Positions 54,822 to 62,565 are shown, counted from the first letter of the stretch. The stretch: 64,000 nucleotides of DNA from a candidate division SR1 bacterium (GCA_007115995.1 SKJI01000013.1:1-64000); one strand, 5' to 3'. Made by a program: numbers and translations. Notes: generated by a model from the letters alone, not told the origin.

Positions 54822-55688
54822 ATGAGTATAGAACGAAAAGCCGCAATGAATCAGTATGGAACATCCTACAAACGAGGGACGTTATTTTTTAATCAAGAAA
54901 CCAAACACGATACGTATATTCTCTATACGTTTTTGAGAGTAATAGATAATATCGTTGATAATCCAGCTACAGATCTACAAGATGCCGCACGTGCAGTCAA
55001 CCAACTGCGCGACCAATTTCATACTTTATATAATCATACAGCACCAATCGATAACCTACTCCTTCAAGAGACCGTTCATCTTGCGCATAAGTACGATATG
55101 CCAGCAACTTGGTTTAATGATTTTTTTGACGCTATGCTTGCAGATACCAAACAAACAACATACGAAACCTACGAACAGCTCCAATGATATATGCGATGAT
55201 CAGCGTGCGTCGTGTGATTAATGATGACAAAGATTATCTGATACGACACCGCATACGAAGAAGAAACATTTGCAGCAGCTACACAACTTGGTGAAGCAAT
55301 GCAATACACAAACTTCCTCAGAGATATCAAAGAAGACTGGCTCGAATACTGACGTTTGTATATTCCATCTGATAGACTTGCAGCATTTTCCTGCTCACAA
55401 CATATGATCAAAAATTTCGCAACATGAACACCAATATCCACACAACGACGTGATTTTATGGACTATCAAATAACACACCTGCAAGACCAATACGCACAAG
55501 CAAATAAGGGCATCAAACAACTCAATCCCCAATGAAGACTGCCAGTACTGATCGCGTCAAACCTCTATGCACGTATTTTGAAACGTATCAAACAGCTCTG
55601 AGGTGATGTATTTACTCGCTCAGCACGCACCAAACCGAATGAAAAAATACTCACGTTGATAGGAACAATTGCTACCTACAAGTTTTAG
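54822..55688 (+). CDS. crtB: Phytoene synthase (squalene/phytoene synthase family)
   Basis: 288 residues. Condenses two GGPP to phytoene. The first Asp motif is DNIVDN near residue 45 and the second NFLRDIKEDW near residue 168, with RLYIPSD near 183, as in CrtB. DKFHT-type and STACK motifs are less clear. First gene of the carotenoid cluster, 18 bases before the prenyltransferase. No Shine-Dalgarno; the start context is CACAATG. Confidence 0.88.
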
Positions 55689-55706
55689 TTTTCTTGCATC
55701 GCAACA

Positions 55707-56651
55707 ATGAAGAGCATACTTCCACATCTCCTTGCAAAAAAAACACGACAACGCATATATAAAACATCACGTCCTCGTTTTTGGCTCTATACAACAGGAC
55801 CGTTTATCTTGGGAATATGATGATCTGAAATTTTATGGACAGTTAGTTTTGGGAACCTTCCAGTAATACAAACTGTCACCATTGTATGCGTCATCCTCGC
55901 ATGATTGTTTTATTTCCTCTTTCCGGCAAATCTACGAATCTACGGACTCAACGACATTGCTGATGGAGACACAGACAAACGAAATCCAAAAAAAACAGAC
56001 TACGAACAAGCAGTAACAGAAACAGCTATCAAACCATTACTCGCGCTAATTCTGCTCACAACGCTAGGAACGGTTGGTGTTGTTTGATGAATACTATGGA
56101 TATGAGATGTTGGGTATACAATAGCATATAAAGAACTACTCATGATGCTTGGATTACTTTTGTTGAGCAGCGCAATTTACTCCCTCCCACCAATAAGAGC
56201 AAAAGCGAAACCATTTTTTGATGGAATAACTAACGTCTTATATATCATCCCATGAGTAATTGGCTTTTTGTTGTTTGGATGAACACTCCAAAGTGTGTTA
56301 TGGCTGTGATTTCTTGCATGATGGTGTTGGAGTATCGCAATGCATACCTATAGTGCAATCCCTGACATAGAACCAGACGAAGCTGCATGATTACTCACTA
56401 CGGCAGTACTCCTCTGAAAAAAATGAACCTTACTCTACTGTCTCCTCATGCGAACAGTGGCAGCACTTTTGGCAATTCTCGCACTTCCTCATCTCATCCG
56501 GTTTTTTCTTGCATGCTTCATGGTCTATGCAACAATGATTATGAGATCATGGTACGGCTCAGTATTTTCACTCTACAAAAAATTTCCCCTCATCAACGGG
56601 CTTATTTGATTTATTTTGTTTTGGTTGTTAGTATTGTTGCAGATGTTTTAG
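55707..56651 (+). CDS. UbiA-family prenyltransferase, probably lycopene elongase
   Basis: 314 residues, eight or nine transmembrane helices. The first Asp-rich motif is NDIADGDTDKRNPKK near residue 82, and the second AIPDIEPDEAAG near residue 222, as in UbiA enzymes. In C50 carotenoid clusters a UbiA protein (LyeJ, CrtEb) adds C5 units to lycopene. The place between crtB and cruF supports that role. Other UbiA substrates (quinones, lipids) remain possible. Confidence 0.8.
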
Positions 56652-56693
56652 GGTTTTCAACAGATACATATATATCAATCCCACTCCATCACC

Positions 56694-57353
56694 CTATCCA
56701 AACAGAAAGAAAAATGCACTCACATACATCGTCATGATAACTAACCCAGTATAACGCAAATATTTATCTCAGAGCAATAAAGGACTGAGCGCACGGAAGA
56801 TGAAGGTACTGAGCGTTCAGGTAAGAATCCATCACAAAAAATTACTTCGTGGCACATTGTATCGTGGCTGTAATCACTGCCAAACAAGATTGTGATACGA
56901 CCGTAATCATTGATGAACAGCGACAGGATCGAGAAAGAGGTCAACCATCATCAAGAGTACTCATCATGAAAACGCGTATAACAAGGGCTGTTTCCAACCG
57001 ACTGTTCGCTGTGTGATCGTTACGACCAAAATCGGTCGTATCATCACCAATAACCATGGAAACGTCCCAAGAAATTGTGGTCACACATACGATGAGTATC
57101 TAAAACATCCATATGGAAAACACGTTGTGATACCAATATATTCGATCAAAATTCCAAACACTCACACCGCACCAATTCACAACAACTGCTTCCATCAGTA
57201 CTGTTTTCGTACATAAGCGACTAATATAATAAACAAGACTGATACGCCTAGCATCGTATACGGTACGGTTTCATCACTAATCGGCGTAAAGCTCATTCAC
57301 CACCCGATAATAATTCAAACAGCGACAAGGAGCATAAATCTTTGGAAGGACAT
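56694..57353 (-). CDS. cruF: CruF-like carotenoid hydratase (DUF422)
   Basis: 219 residues with seven or so transmembrane helices. The family signature is seen in VDLFLDPVAVHQG near residue 145 and NVPRSNFLGWILTGTLS near 175, and in IGITTCFPYGCFRYSSY near 75. CruF hydrates the ends of acyclic carotenoids, including bisanhydrobacterioruberin in haloarchaea. The start was taken at the first ATG; the frame stays open about 17 codons upstream. It is convergent with the UbiA gene and follows crtI by 48 bases. Confidence 0.82.
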
Positions 57354-57401
57354 CGTTCGTAGTGAAACAATAAAACCTTGGTCAAGTACCAACGTAACCG
57401 T

Positions 57402-58868
57402 TTAGTGTGTAGCAATTCTATCAGTTGCTAACTTTCCACTTATCAAACACATTGGCATTCAAATTCACGGATTGGTATATCATCATGCGTAGAAAAGATT
57501 TTTGACTTTCTTGCTTTTGGTGTTTGGTCTCAATAGTGCTGTTTGTAGCAACGTATGAGCAAGTCACAACGCAGATCACTGATACGCGTTATAACGTTGT
57601 TCAAAATCCTTGACTGAAAACATATGTTCTTGGACGATACGATCAGCAAATGATTCACCAATAGACTGTTCAATACCAGTGATTACTTTGTCTCTGTATG
57701 CTTTTGTTTGTGGTTCATCAAGATAGACTCCAGGAGGAAATGGGACTAGCACAAACAAGTTTTCGAATCATTCAGGAGCGACCGTCTTGTCAGTCTTGGA
57801 CGGGCAGCAAATATATAATGACGGATCAGTTGGCGCAACTTTTTCTGTAAAAATTTCAGCAAAATTACGATCCCAATCTTTACTAAACAAGAGTGTATGA
57901 TGATCGAGATTTTCTACTGTTCACTGAACACCCAAGTATAAAATAAACCCACTTGGTGCCATCACTTTCTTTTCTCGGTATGATGCTGGATAGGTCTGTC
58001 GTTGTGGTTGGAGGAGATGTGTTTCTGTCCATCGATAATCAGCATTTGAAATAATATAATCACTCGCAATCGGAACACCTCAGACGATCATCTGCGTTGC
58101 ACGACCGTGATCGACCTCTATCGCTGTCACTTCAGCATTTGTGTGAAACTTCACACCAAACTCATCAGCAAGTTTGACAAGTCATTGAATAATTGCATTG
58201 ATTCAACCATCAGGGTAATATACACCCATTCCAAAATCTACATGCGACATAATATTGTACAAAGCAGGTGCATCCTTAGGTGCTGTGCCCAAAAATACCA
58301 ATGGATATTGCATAATTTGCTGCATTTCTTGACTAGAAAACCACTTTTTGACATATGAATCCATTTTTTCAAACACACGCATTTTTGCTCATTCCGTTGC
58401 CATTCTCCACGTAAAAAAATCAAACACGCTATCGTAATTTTTGATCACAAACTCTTTCATTGCTATCTCGTACTGATACGCAGCACGGTCGAGATATTGA
58501 TACAGTTTGTCAGTTGATCATGGTTCAAGCGACTCAAACAGTGTTCTGTTTTTCTCAAGATCATCATAGACACGCGCAACCTTATCAGTATCCTTAAAAA
58601 AGATCTTGTACGATGGACTGAGTTTGGTAATCGTGAGATAGTCTTCTCTTTTCTTTCCAAACTGCTCAAAAAACGACTCAAACAGATCAGGCATCAAATA
58701 CCAACTCGGTCACATATCCCATCTAAATCAATCATGCTCAAACACACTCGCTCTCCCTCACAACTGTTCATTTTTCTCATACACAACAACTTCATGCCCA
58801 GCATACGCTGCATGAATTGCAGCTGATAATCATCAAAATCACGATCATATAATAGAAACTTTTGCCAT
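57402..58868 (-). CDS. crtI: Phytoene desaturase (CrtI family)
   Basis: 488 residues. Rossmann motif SIIGSGFGGLSAAIHAAYAG at the start, VVVYEKNEQLGGRASVFE near 28, and DMGPSWYLMPDLFE near 52. The C-terminal FYAGGYTNPGIGMPMCLISG near 458 is the bacterial phytoene dehydrogenase signature. Four TGA glycines fall inside the first motif. It makes lycopene by successive desaturations, or acts on elongated carotenoids. It lies upstream of cruF on the same strand. Confidence 0.93.
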
Positions 58869-58972
58869 ATCTTCTCAAACAGCTACATGTACACACCAAC
58901 GCAGTACACCCAAATAAAAACACATACTTGTTATATAGTGATTACAGTGAGATTATCAATGAGTGGTAGTGA

Positions 58973-59560
58973 TTATTGTGAAAGGTGATTGATACAATTA
59001 CGTTTAAGGAAAGTAAATCATTGTGAAAAGTCTCATTCTACAATTGTCACTGAAGTATTTTTTAATTTTTCTAATGTATTAAATTGCTCAACAGGTATTC
59101 ACTCAATTTGGGCAATCATACTTTTGATAAAAAATCAATGCGATACAATTAGGAAAGTACCTTCTGCATCGTAATGTTTCTGGAGATAAGCTAGGAATTT
59201 CTTAGATCTCATAAAAAGTTCATGATCAGTTTCTCAACAATTCATAGGAGACATATCACGATCCATATTGAAATATTCTTCACGAGGTCTTCATTCAAAA
59301 TCTCAAAACGATCTCTCTCTTAATAACTCTAAATATGTTACGGTAATTCAATCATGATAGGTAGCAAGTAATTTCGTTGTATCAACTGCTCTTTGTAAAT
59401 CACTTGAATAGATATAATCAATTTTAGTAGTGGCAAGACTTCTTGCAAGAGATTTCGCTTCTTGTATTCAACGTTCAGATAAAATTCATGGTATATGACC
59501 TTGCAATATTCCTGCTTGATTTTCAAGCGTTTCTCAATGCCTTACAAAGATTAACTTCAT
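58973..59560 (-). CDS. Histidine phosphatase family protein (PhoE/GpmB-like)
   Basis: 195 residues. MKLIFVRHGETLENQAG carries the RHG catalytic motif. IYSSDLQRAVDTTKLL near residue 57, LLRERSFGDFEGRPREEY near 83, and FLIVSHGFFIKSMIAQ near 148 with the second His complete the fold. It could dephosphorylate a prenyl or sugar phosphate, but the substrate is unknown. It lies within the carotenoid cluster. Confidence 0.85.
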
Positions 59561-59719
59561 ATGAAATGATAGAGAATAAATATCAGAGAGTAGACCAAAA
59601 CATAATATATCAAATAAATAAAATATATCAATACATTATTAGAAATCTCCGAAAAATTACTTTTACAATGATGATATATAATCTCTTGTTATTCCACCAC
59701 CAATCTATAGAAACAGACA

Positions 59720-60754
59720 ATGAAACGAAAAGAATTTATTACCGTCTTTGACAAACAGTTTGCAACGTTTTTGGATGAACAGTGTGCATCAGTACATAGC
59801 CATTTTTCTGATGATACATTTCAAGCACTTACCAACTATATCAAACAATTTCACCAAGGTGGGAAAAGAATTAGACCATATCTCGTCTATCTCCTCCATC
59901 AAGGATTTGGATGAACCCATGAACATATCTTGCAACTATCAATGAGCAACGAGCTTATTCATCTCTTTGCGCTGATCCATGATGATATTATCGATAAATG
60001 AACAATCAGACACAACATACCCACCTATCATCTGCATGCTGCAGCTCTCTACAAAGACGACCATATTTGAAGCGCACAAGCAATGTTACTGTGAGATCTT
60101 GTCTATACACGAGCATGGAAAAACGTACTAAAATATTGTGATAACATATCTATCATGCAATTAATCATTAGTCTTGCAGAAGAAGTCGTGATCGGAGAGA
60201 TGATTGATGTCCATATGTCAGCAAGCCAACATCTCTACACTGCAAAAGAAATTCTCTTCAAAGATAAAATTAAATCATGATACTATACGTTTACAAGACC
60301 TATGATGCTTGGTGCAAAGCTTGCAAACGTTGAACAAACAACACTCGATCACGTTGAAGCGCTTGGTAACAATATTGCAACAGCATTCCAACTCAGAGAT
60401 GATCTTATGGATTGTATCGATACGCACGCCAACAAAACAACATTTTCAGACCTTCAAGAATGAAATCAAACTATTCTTCTCCATAACACCCTTGTAGCAA
60501 TTACCGAATCTGAACGCGAATATATTCTCAACAACCGTTGAAAAAAACTCGATGCAGACACTATCAGCATTATCCAGTCTCTTATCAAAAAAAGTTGAGC
60601 ACTTCAAGAAACCGCACAGCTGATTAATCACCATCTTGCTCTTGCAACAGAACAACTTGCTGATTTACCACTCATGCATCAGACAGCAAAGGATGCATTA
60701 CAGGATATTATCACCTATCTAAAAATATCTGAAGAGACCTTAAAACTTTCTTAA
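59720..60754 (+). CDS. Polyprenyl diphosphate synthase (trans, GGPP-type)
   Basis: 344 residues. GGKRIRPYLVYLLHQGFG near residue 46 binds diphosphate. The first Asp motif is LIHDDIIDKGTIRH near residue 87, and the second is FQLRDDLMDCID near residue 232. It makes the C20 precursor for carotenoids, or longer chains. The residues before the first Asp motif (NELIHLFALIHDD) include Phe/Leu rather than bulky pairs, so the chain length is not predictable by eye. It is divergent from the histidine phosphatase gene. Confidence 0.88.
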
Positions 60755-60817: not shown

Positions 60818-61519
60818 TTATACAAACTCTGCCTGAGTTTTGTGAGCATCTGGATTATAACAAGAAAACAGCAAAGAAATAATATCAGTCAATGATAATC
60901 TTTGTGCTTCAACTCACAATCATTTCAATGAGTCACTAATCACAGCGACTCTCGTATCGAGATATTTTTGGTTTTTGAGGAATATTCTATATCTTTCGAC
61001 AACTTTTTCAGGAGTGTCTACTGCACTCATTGCATCAAGAAACTTTTGCCATCGTGGTTTTTTGATACCATCTTCATCTTTTTCAGCTGGATAATATGGA
61101 ATAACGATATAGAAATGTTTGATAAAAAGTAAACCTTGTTGTTTATTAATATCATCAAGAAAGTCTATATATCATTCTCATTGCTCTTTGAGCAATCATG
61201 TATCAAGAGCATCGATATTTCATCTCATATAATTAATATAATCAGAAAGTTCTAAATAATCATTACGCACCAGTATTTGAATAGGGAATCATAATCAATT
61301 AATGAATTTTTTGTATTGTTCTACTATTGCTTCTTGTTCTTCATAGTTTCTTAAATCAATATTGACTCAAGTAAGTTTGACAATTGCTCTTATAGATCCA
61401 TCCTTCATAATCAAGGTATTTCATTTAATTTCAGAAATAGGCAACATTGTTTCTGTATTAAAAACATTGTTTTCTTTTCATTGTTTGATTTTAGATTTTT
61501 CTTTATTAAATCAGAACAT
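60818..61519 (-). CDS. TraC-like N-terminal domain protein of a type IV secretion system
   Basis: 233 residues. ENNVFNTETMLPISEIKG, DGSIRAIVKLTGVNIDLRN and FPIQILVRNDYLELSDYIN near residues 20-105 match the N-terminal module of TraC/VirB4-type ATPases that CPR bacteria often code as a separate small protein. The Walker ATPase half is not in this window. The start is the most upstream ATG. It is followed on the same strand by two pilin-like genes upstream at 61541 and 62056. Confidence 0.7.
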
Positions 61520-61540
61520 TATACATTTATAAGAATAAAA

Positions 61541-62056
61541 CTACACATCTATATCAACTTTTACTTGGAAGAATATATCAAAAAGTTGACTAACAATAAT
61601 TCGTGCCAATCAGATAACAAAGAGTGCAAGTATTGCTATTCATGCCATCTTGCGAGCCTCTTTGAGTCATTCTTCATCACTACTTCTAAAGACCATTTTA
61701 TAGAATGCGTAAATCAAGACAGTAAGAGCAAGTAATCAAATAACTGCCAATAACCAATTGATAACCTCTAACACATAATTTGTTGCCCTTTGTTCTCATT
61801 CAAGATCAATACCAAATGCTTGTTGAATTTGTTCTGAAACACCATCAGTTGGATTTACTGCATCGTCTCTAATAAGAACACCGAAATCTATTGCCTCCTG
61901 TCATGTTTGATTGTCAGATCAATAAGGAAACTCTGTAGGAATAGTATAAGCAAATAATCATCATACTAAGAAAAAACTCATTATCATACTCAATATGATT
62001 TTTTTCAGACTGCTACAATAAGAAAGAACTATGCCGTTACATCTATCTCTTTTCAT
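61541..62056 (-). CDS. VirB2/TrbC-like pilin (copy A)
   Basis: 171 residues. A signal peptide (ILSMIMSFFLVGGLFAYT) is followed by a soluble spacer, then two transmembrane helices (VINWLLAVIGLLALTVLIYAF and GIAILALFVIGLARIIV) joined by SSDEEGLKEARKMA. The GxxEExxKxxR-type loop between helices is characteristic of VirB2-type pilins. It overlaps its upstream neighbour as TAATG, a coupled arrangement, and precedes the TraC-like gene. Confidence 0.7.
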
Positions 62057-62565
62057 TATGTTACAAGTAAGGTAATAAGCCAAAAAACAATACTCACTAA
62101 GAACCAAGCTAAAGCGATTCATAAAATAGCTATCATTGCTGTTCTAATTCACGATCGTCATTTTTTAATTTTTTCTTCGTCTCAAGCTCAGGTGACAACA
62201 AGCATACCATGATATATTAAATAGATCAGCATTACTAGTCACGATATTCACAATACTCGATTCAAAAATCATGTCCATGCCCTTGTAAATTCAGTCCATG
62301 CCTCAGCAGTTGAACTAATTTCACTAAAAAAAATACTATCATCTCCGCTTGTATCACCAATTCACTCTCATATCGCACCAGTCCCATCTCTCAATGGATT
62401 CTCACTTTCTCTTATTGTTTGTCCAATCACGTCTTCTTGTTGTTGTGTCAAAATTGTTCTTCACTCTCTGAGCGGATAGTCTAATCATGCATACACTAAA
62501 AATCATGATAAGATCCAAATGCATAGCATCATAATTGTAATAACTCAACGAAGATATGAGACCAT
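62056..62565 (-). CDS. VirB2/TrbC-like pilin (copy B)
   Basis: 169 residues. A signal peptide (LCIWILSGFLVYA) leads to a spacer of about 75 residues, a helix (VLGISGLVMLIYLIYHGMLV), the loop GAGDEEKIKKGRSGI, and a second helix (IAILGIALAWFLVSIVFWLI). It is paralogous to the next gene in layout. The stop codon shares a base with that gene's ATG. Confidence 0.72.

Follow-up and report, generated by a model that had tools for sequence, protein, structure and literature searches.

The 64,000-nucleotide stretch of DNA analysed here, called the window throughout, comes from a member of the Absconditabacterales/Gracilibacteria within the candidate phyla radiation (CPR), whose genome assembly (1.0 Mb in 50 contigs) is 94.5% complete, and carries a cluster of carotenoid genes at 54822-60754. 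As a preliminary description of this DNA had stated, five carotenoid genes lie within about 6 kb: crtB, a UbiA-type elongase, cruF, crtI and a polyprenyl diphosphate synthase were all found, with families assigned by Pfam and NCBIfam (Table 1). We consider it likely, judging from gene content and conserved motifs, that they encode a working pathway to a red, acyclic C50 (bacterioruberin-type) carotenoid of the kind found in haloarchaea, in a tiny and probably host-dependent cell that lacks C5 isoprenoid synthesis. What is new is the presence of a compact, conserved C50 cluster in a recoded lineage without a detected precursor supply. Bacterioruberin genes as such were already known from other Patescibacteria (PMC9948471), and many further Patescibacteria loci emerged from our scan of GTDB genomes; C50 genes are not unprecedented in CPR bacteria, which had been described at first as usually thought to lack carotenoid synthesis.

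Predicted pathway and its enzymes

In the proposed pathway the polyprenyl synthase would form geranylgeranyl diphosphate (GGPP), two molecules of which CrtB would join into phytoene. CrtI would desaturate phytoene to lycopene, the UbiA enzyme would add one C5 unit to each lycopene end with 1,2-hydration, the same CrtI would introduce the 3,4 double bonds, and CruF would hydrate the added C5 ends. One crtI would be enough for this route, because in Haloarcula japonica both desaturations are carried out by a single bifunctional enzyme of this type (PMC11946383). The evidence best supports an acyclic C50 carotenoid of the bacterioruberin type as the product, a prediction that does not fix the degree of hydroxylation. 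Such a carotenoid would be rigid and polar and would sit in the membrane, with plausible roles in membrane stiffening and in protection from oxidation or light.

The cluster region was translated with code 25, and Pfam assigned every cluster gene to a family, the E-values lying between 2e-20 and 2e-57. Two proteins, CrtI (NF058655) and UbiA (NF009516), passed curated NCBIfam cut-offs. CrtI matched the model CrtID, 'bifunctional phytoene desaturase/3,4-desaturase', with 653.9 bits when the CGA and CGG (CGR) codons were read as Trp, and it retains 117 of 123 strongly conserved residues, counted here and below against standard-code homologues; its sequence is that of a predicted bifunctional phytoene/3,4-desaturase. 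The start codon of crtI is best placed at ATG 58868 rather than at 58925. UbiA scored 210 bits against NF009516 (cut-off 205), rising to 214.3 bits with CGR as Trp, and 52 of its 53 strongly conserved residues are present. Its Asp motifs, N82-D83-x-x-D86-x-x-x-D90 and D220-x-x-x-D224, both align with those of the solved AfUbiA. CrtB keeps both of its Asp motifs (D42/D46; R167 D168 E171 D172) among the 39 of 46 strongly conserved residues present, and crtB adjoins lyeJ in at least eight relatives; the C40 specificity of CrtB rests on gene context. The polyprenyl synthase (26/31 residues) is the sole PF00348 member of the window's genome and adjoins crtI in L025, L028, L029, L030 and L060. Its first Asp motif, DDIID, is preceded by Phe83 at position -5 and its second reads DDLMD; archaeal-type GGPP synthases share this Phe at -5 and an uninterrupted first motif, and the closest solved relative is the GGPP synthase 3lk5. 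We infer that its chain length is probably that of GGPP (C20).

CruF is the least certain and most divergent of the five enzymes. Its best NCBIfam matches, CruF_Halo and TIGR03460, both fall under their cut-offs though the Pfam cut-off was passed, and 22 of 30 strongly conserved residues are present. A pathway that stops short of bacterioruberin, in which CruF or the 3,4-desaturation has drifted so that the C45 or C50 carotenoid made carries fewer hydroxyls, or in which CruF acts on another acyclic carotenoid, therefore deserves some weight. Besides the divergence of CruF, four genomes (G021, G011, G012 and G046) hold crtB-ubiA-crtI with no CruF found, and the CruF of G030 was matched as two adjacent pieces. 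Such a truncated pathway is nevertheless unlikely in our judgement, because the core motifs of the window's CruF are intact (E73, D140, D144-P145, W153, N173, G176-W177) and two relatives have cruF in the same place, flanked by ubiA and crtI. Degenerate CruF or CrtI active sites, named beforehand as a possible refutation of the C50 assignment, were not encountered: the CrtI motifs are intact, and CruF, while divergent, has kept its core.

The combination of CrtI, a UbiA elongase and CruF with no cyclase had been read as an acyclic C50 signature, and our results support that reading. No PF18916 lycopene cyclase was found in the window's genome, and none of 18 cluster genomes had one above cut-off, in a search that left out PF05834 (CrtL/CrtY-type) and CruA-type cyclases; the control Corynebacterium glutamicum scored positive for PF18916. 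A cyclic C50 pathway of the decaprenoxanthin or sarcinaxanthin type, which would use a CrtYe/Yf-type cyclase, was rejected on the absence of PF18916 from these 18 genomes.

Supply of C5 units

The search for methylerythritol phosphate and mevalonate pathway genes that had been proposed for this genome found no 3-hydroxy-3-methylglutaryl-CoA reductase (HMGR), GHMP kinase, IspH or type-2 isopentenyl diphosphate (IPP) isomerase in it. HMGR was tested in the window's genome only. Across the 12 family and class genomes searched, IspH was found in none and GHMP kinases were absent from 11, the single-contig genomes G002 and G003 included; one GHMP kinase was found in G013, and the same kinase search was positive in 14 of 14 control genomes. 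The polyprenyl synthase is present in 10 of the 12 genomes tested, and the two without it, G003 and G017, also have neither phytoene synthase nor CruF. G007 (L033) has retained its polyprenyl synthase though no phytoene synthase or CruF was found there. The cis-prenyltransferase UppS (PF01255), which bears on the supply of the peptidoglycan lipid carrier, was not found in the window's genome and is present in 7 of the 12 genomes searched.

We suggest that the pigment is probably fed by scavenged prenyl diphosphates, with IPP, dimethylallyl diphosphate (DMAPP) or a longer prenyl diphosphate being taken from a host or prey. In G002 a type-1 IPP isomerase lies between crtB and the synthase (L022:7877-8419; TIGR02150 and NF002995 both above cut-off), in a genome where IspH, GHMP kinases and the type-2 isomerase were not found, and G324 has a type-1 IPP isomerase match beside UbiA. 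No other recurring extra partner gene was found in the cluster neighbourhoods. On balance we lean towards a fuller proposal, by a modest degree of confidence: that Absconditabacterales run a complete C50 pathway on IPP/DMAPP or longer prenyl diphosphates from the host while being unable to make isoprenoid units, and that the in-cluster type-1 IPP isomerase of some members would balance the imported pool.

Alternatively, the cell might produce IPP and DMAPP itself, through a route that is divergent or escaped detection or with genes in the missing 5% of the assembly, and need no scavenging. The division of the assembly into 50 contigs, the single GHMP kinase of G013 and the mevalonate pathway that is usual in freshwater Gracilibacteria (PMC9166423) would all fit such endogenous synthesis. 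We regard it as quite improbable, since GHMP kinase and HMGR, which serve separate steps, are both missing from the window's genome, since the absence of IspH and GHMP kinases recurs across the family and class genomes, single-contig members included, with the GHMP kinase controls positive, and since a Gracilibacterium genome described in 2019 lacks both C5 pathways yet has a GGPP synthase (PMC6851277). The earlier expectation that CPR bacteria lack isoprenoid synthesis thus stands for the window's genome, where no marker was found, and fails for the CPR as a whole, given the freshwater Gracilibacteria (PMC9166423).

Several points weigh against a complete C50 pathway running on scavenged precursors. 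CrtB falls below every NCBIfam equivalog cut-off, CruF is short and under the NCBIfam CruF cut-offs, and the cyclase search was confined to PF18916, leaving aside the PF05834 and CruA types. The assembly, split over 50 contigs, is 94.5% complete. The window yielded no IPP isomerase, the type-1 enzyme having been looked for there and not genome-wide. Finally, we know of no prenyl diphosphate importer, and none was identified here.

The proposal of a host-fed pigment pathway, if true, implies that prenyl diphosphates can be taken up by some route. The membrane lipids of ultrasmall CPR bacteria are believed to come from their hosts; a conserved C50 pathway in a genome where no C5 synthesis was detected points to a pool of prenyl diphosphates that is exported or stolen. 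A C50 pigment would also be coloured and visible by Raman, and so could serve as a marker by which these cells are found and sorted.

Phylogeny and distribution

When GTDB genomes were scanned with an alignment of UbiA, 332 relatives were obtained, of which 80 were kept. Most of these adjoin crtI and many adjoin cruF and crtB, in organisms that include haloarchaea, Acidobacteria, Flavobacteriaceae, several classes of Patescibacteria and two groups of DPANN archaea. A careful maximum-likelihood tree places the window's UbiA inside the LyeJ clade (support 95/95), within a nine-protein clade of its own family (99/94); the LyeJ clade excludes UbiA and MenA of Escherichia coli as well as the other UbiAs found in haloarchaea and Acidobacteria. 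The possibility that this UbiA is a quinone, heme or archaeal-lipid prenyltransferase in a coincidental neighbourhood takes its appeal from the breadth of the PF01040 superfamily and from detectable profile similarity to AfUbiA and chlorophyll synthase. It is very improbable in view of the position in the LyeJ clade, the NF009516 match, the finding that this is the genome's only UbiA, and the recurrence of the same cluster context in haloarchaea, Acidobacteria, Flavobacteria, DPANN archaea and CPR bacteria. A grouping of UbiA with quinone or lipid enzymes, which the preliminary description had named as grounds for abandoning the elongase assignment, did not occur; the maximum-likelihood tree rejects that role.

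The trees of CrtI and CruF, obtained by short searches and with weaker support, also place the window's proteins with their own family, nearest to G025, and the CruF clade unites the window's protein with those of six relatives. The likeness to the haloarchaeal and actinobacterial pathways, stressed at the outset, does not extend to kinship: the nearest relatives belong to the same CPR family, and direct transfer from haloarchaea or Actinobacteria is unsupported by the UbiA, CrtI and CruF trees, in which their versions lie far off. G013 stands apart from the family for both UbiA and CrtI, and therefore at least one further acquisition of cluster genes is likely. No UbiA relatives were found in IMG/VR, and there was no sign of phage carriage; relatives on plasmids were limited to haloarchaeal records and one Arthrobacter record.

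Phytoene synthase occurs in 24 of 353 genomes of the class, 14 of them in the window's family, and CruF in 9 of 353, 8 of them in the family (the window's own genome is counted in each case). The order crtB+ ubiA+ cruF- crtI- followed by the synthase on the plus strand is kept in L028 and L029, and other relatives have incomplete or rearranged versions of the cluster. In G030 the carotenoid genes are spread over three contigs (L031, L032 and L067), which, with the CruF match in two adjacent pieces, may reflect decay of the pathway.

Genetic code of the cluster

The five genes contain 63 TGA codons, and TGA stands at glycine in 28 of 29 conserved columns. At codon 299 of CrtI, a CGA, Trp is present in all 69 standard-code homologues, and at codon 153 of CruF, a CGG, it is present in all 57. 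Where the cluster has CGA, 5% of the homologue residues are Arg or Lys; the corresponding share is 41% for CGT and 52% for AGA. With CGA and CGG read as Trp, the best scores rose for CrtI, UbiA, CruF and the synthase and stayed the same for CrtB. The full Absconditabacteria code, in which TGA is Gly and CGA/CGG is Trp (PMC8629427), applies to the cluster. The window also encodes a tRNA-Gly(UCA) whose G1:C72, C2:G71, G3:C70 and U73 match the glycine identity rules (PMC8629427). CGA and CGG stand at Trp rather than Arg positions in the relatives L022, L028, L029, L062, L064 and L065 as well, and gene prediction with table 25 will translate them wrongly in this Absconditabacterales family.

The recoded codons, the tRNA-Gly(UCA) and a block of ribosomal-protein and rpoA-like genes on the same contig (named by eye from the sequence) indicate that the cluster is native to the lineage and not a stray contig. 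Binning or assembly error, by which a foreign contig would have entered a CPR bin, might be suspected in a fragmented metagenome bin. We give it almost no credence, because the cluster genes themselves use TGA for Gly and CGA/CGG for Trp, because the same 64 kb holds the ribosomal-protein genes and the decoding tRNA, and because the cluster recurs in independent genomes of the family, among them the single-contig G002. The view that the genes are long resident and fully adapted, first based on their TGA codons, is supported, since the family-level clades in three gene trees and the full recoding both speak for long residence in the lineage.

Relation to known systems

The haloarchaeal cluster (crtI/D-lyeJ-cruF; Haloarcula japonica C0507; the Halocatena salina plasmid, L158) resembles that of the window in having the three late enzymes together, a bifunctional CrtI/CrtD-type desaturase and no adjacent cyclase. 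The proteins, however, are only about 35-50% identical and gene order and orientation differ; unlike the haloarchaeal cluster, the CPR cluster includes a GGPP synthase and CrtB and lies in a genome without the tested mevalonate markers. The acidobacterial (Pyrinomonadaceae/Blastocatellia) lyeJ clusters L078-L110 likewise bring cruF, ubiA, crtI and crtB together, but with another strand arrangement and with a UbiA of another subclade. In L078 a type-1 IPP isomerase domain forms the C-terminus of CruF, and most of the other acidobacterial loci (L079-L110) have an IDI match just past CruF. Arthrobacter agilis and A. bussei carry out the same steps as predicted for the window, with separate crtI and crtD and an idi gene (PMC9122864); the Arthrobacter UbiA (L157) is distant from that of the window in the tree. 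The bacterioruberin pigment is needed for cold growth in Arthrobacter (PMC9122864).

Within the Patescibacteria, lyeJ, crtD and cruF were described from Lake Baikal Saccharibacteria and Baikalibacteria and interpreted as a route to bacterioruberin, which was proposed to act in membranes in the cold (PMC9948471). In the Baikal genomes cruF is distant or the genes lie on separate reads, whereas the window holds five genes within 6 kb in a recoded member of the Absconditabacterales, for which C5 synthesis was checked and not found. In the literature searched, mostly through titles and abstracts, no report of a carotenoid cluster in Gracilibacteria or Absconditabacteria was met. The Gracilibacterium BD1-5 report noted that both C5 pathways are missing while a GGPP synthase is present, called the reason unclear and left carotenoid genes unmentioned (PMC6851277); the window's cluster supplies a reason for such a synthase, at least in its own family. 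LyeJ clusters also occur in DPANN archaea, in Woesearchaeota and Nanohaloarchaeota (L075, L082 and L104), in parallel to the CPR, and the trait may thus recur in small symbionts of both domains.

Cluster layout and neighbouring genes

Table 1 Carotenoid cluster and associated features of the window.
Feature	Position	Strand	Details
crtB, phytoene synthase	54822..55688	+	288 aa, 8 TGA=Gly codons; PF00494 195 bits, E 2e-57
ubiA-type lycopene elongase (LyeJ/CrtEb-like)	55707..56651	+	314 aa; PF01040 E 4e-20
cruF, putative carotenoid (bisanhydrobacterioruberin-type) hydratase	56694..57353	-	219 aa, short, divergent; PF04240 77 bits, cut-off 25
crtI/crtD, predicted phytoene and 3,4-desaturase	57402..58868	-	488 aa; NF058655 CrtID 649.5 bits, cut-off 640
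Histidine phosphatase	58973..59560	-	PF00300
Type-I-like polyprenyl (probable GGPP) diphosphate synthase	59720..60754	+	344 aa; PF00348 E 2e-40
tRNA-Gly(UCA), decodes TGA=Gly	32817..32891	-	listed by ARAGORN as tRNA-SeC

The histidine phosphatase between crtI and the synthase, which had gone unmentioned in the preliminary description, is probably an unrelated insertion, because it is missing at the same place in L028 and L029 and because its GC content is 0.31 against 0.40 in the crt genes; on the same grounds it was rejected as a pathway enzyme. G013, too, has a histidine phosphatase close to its UbiA (L062:6261-6797). Flanking the cluster, at 60818-62565, are open reading frames that resemble type IV secretion or pilin genes, by eye only, and the pair at 61541-62565 has two relatives in G030 (L067).

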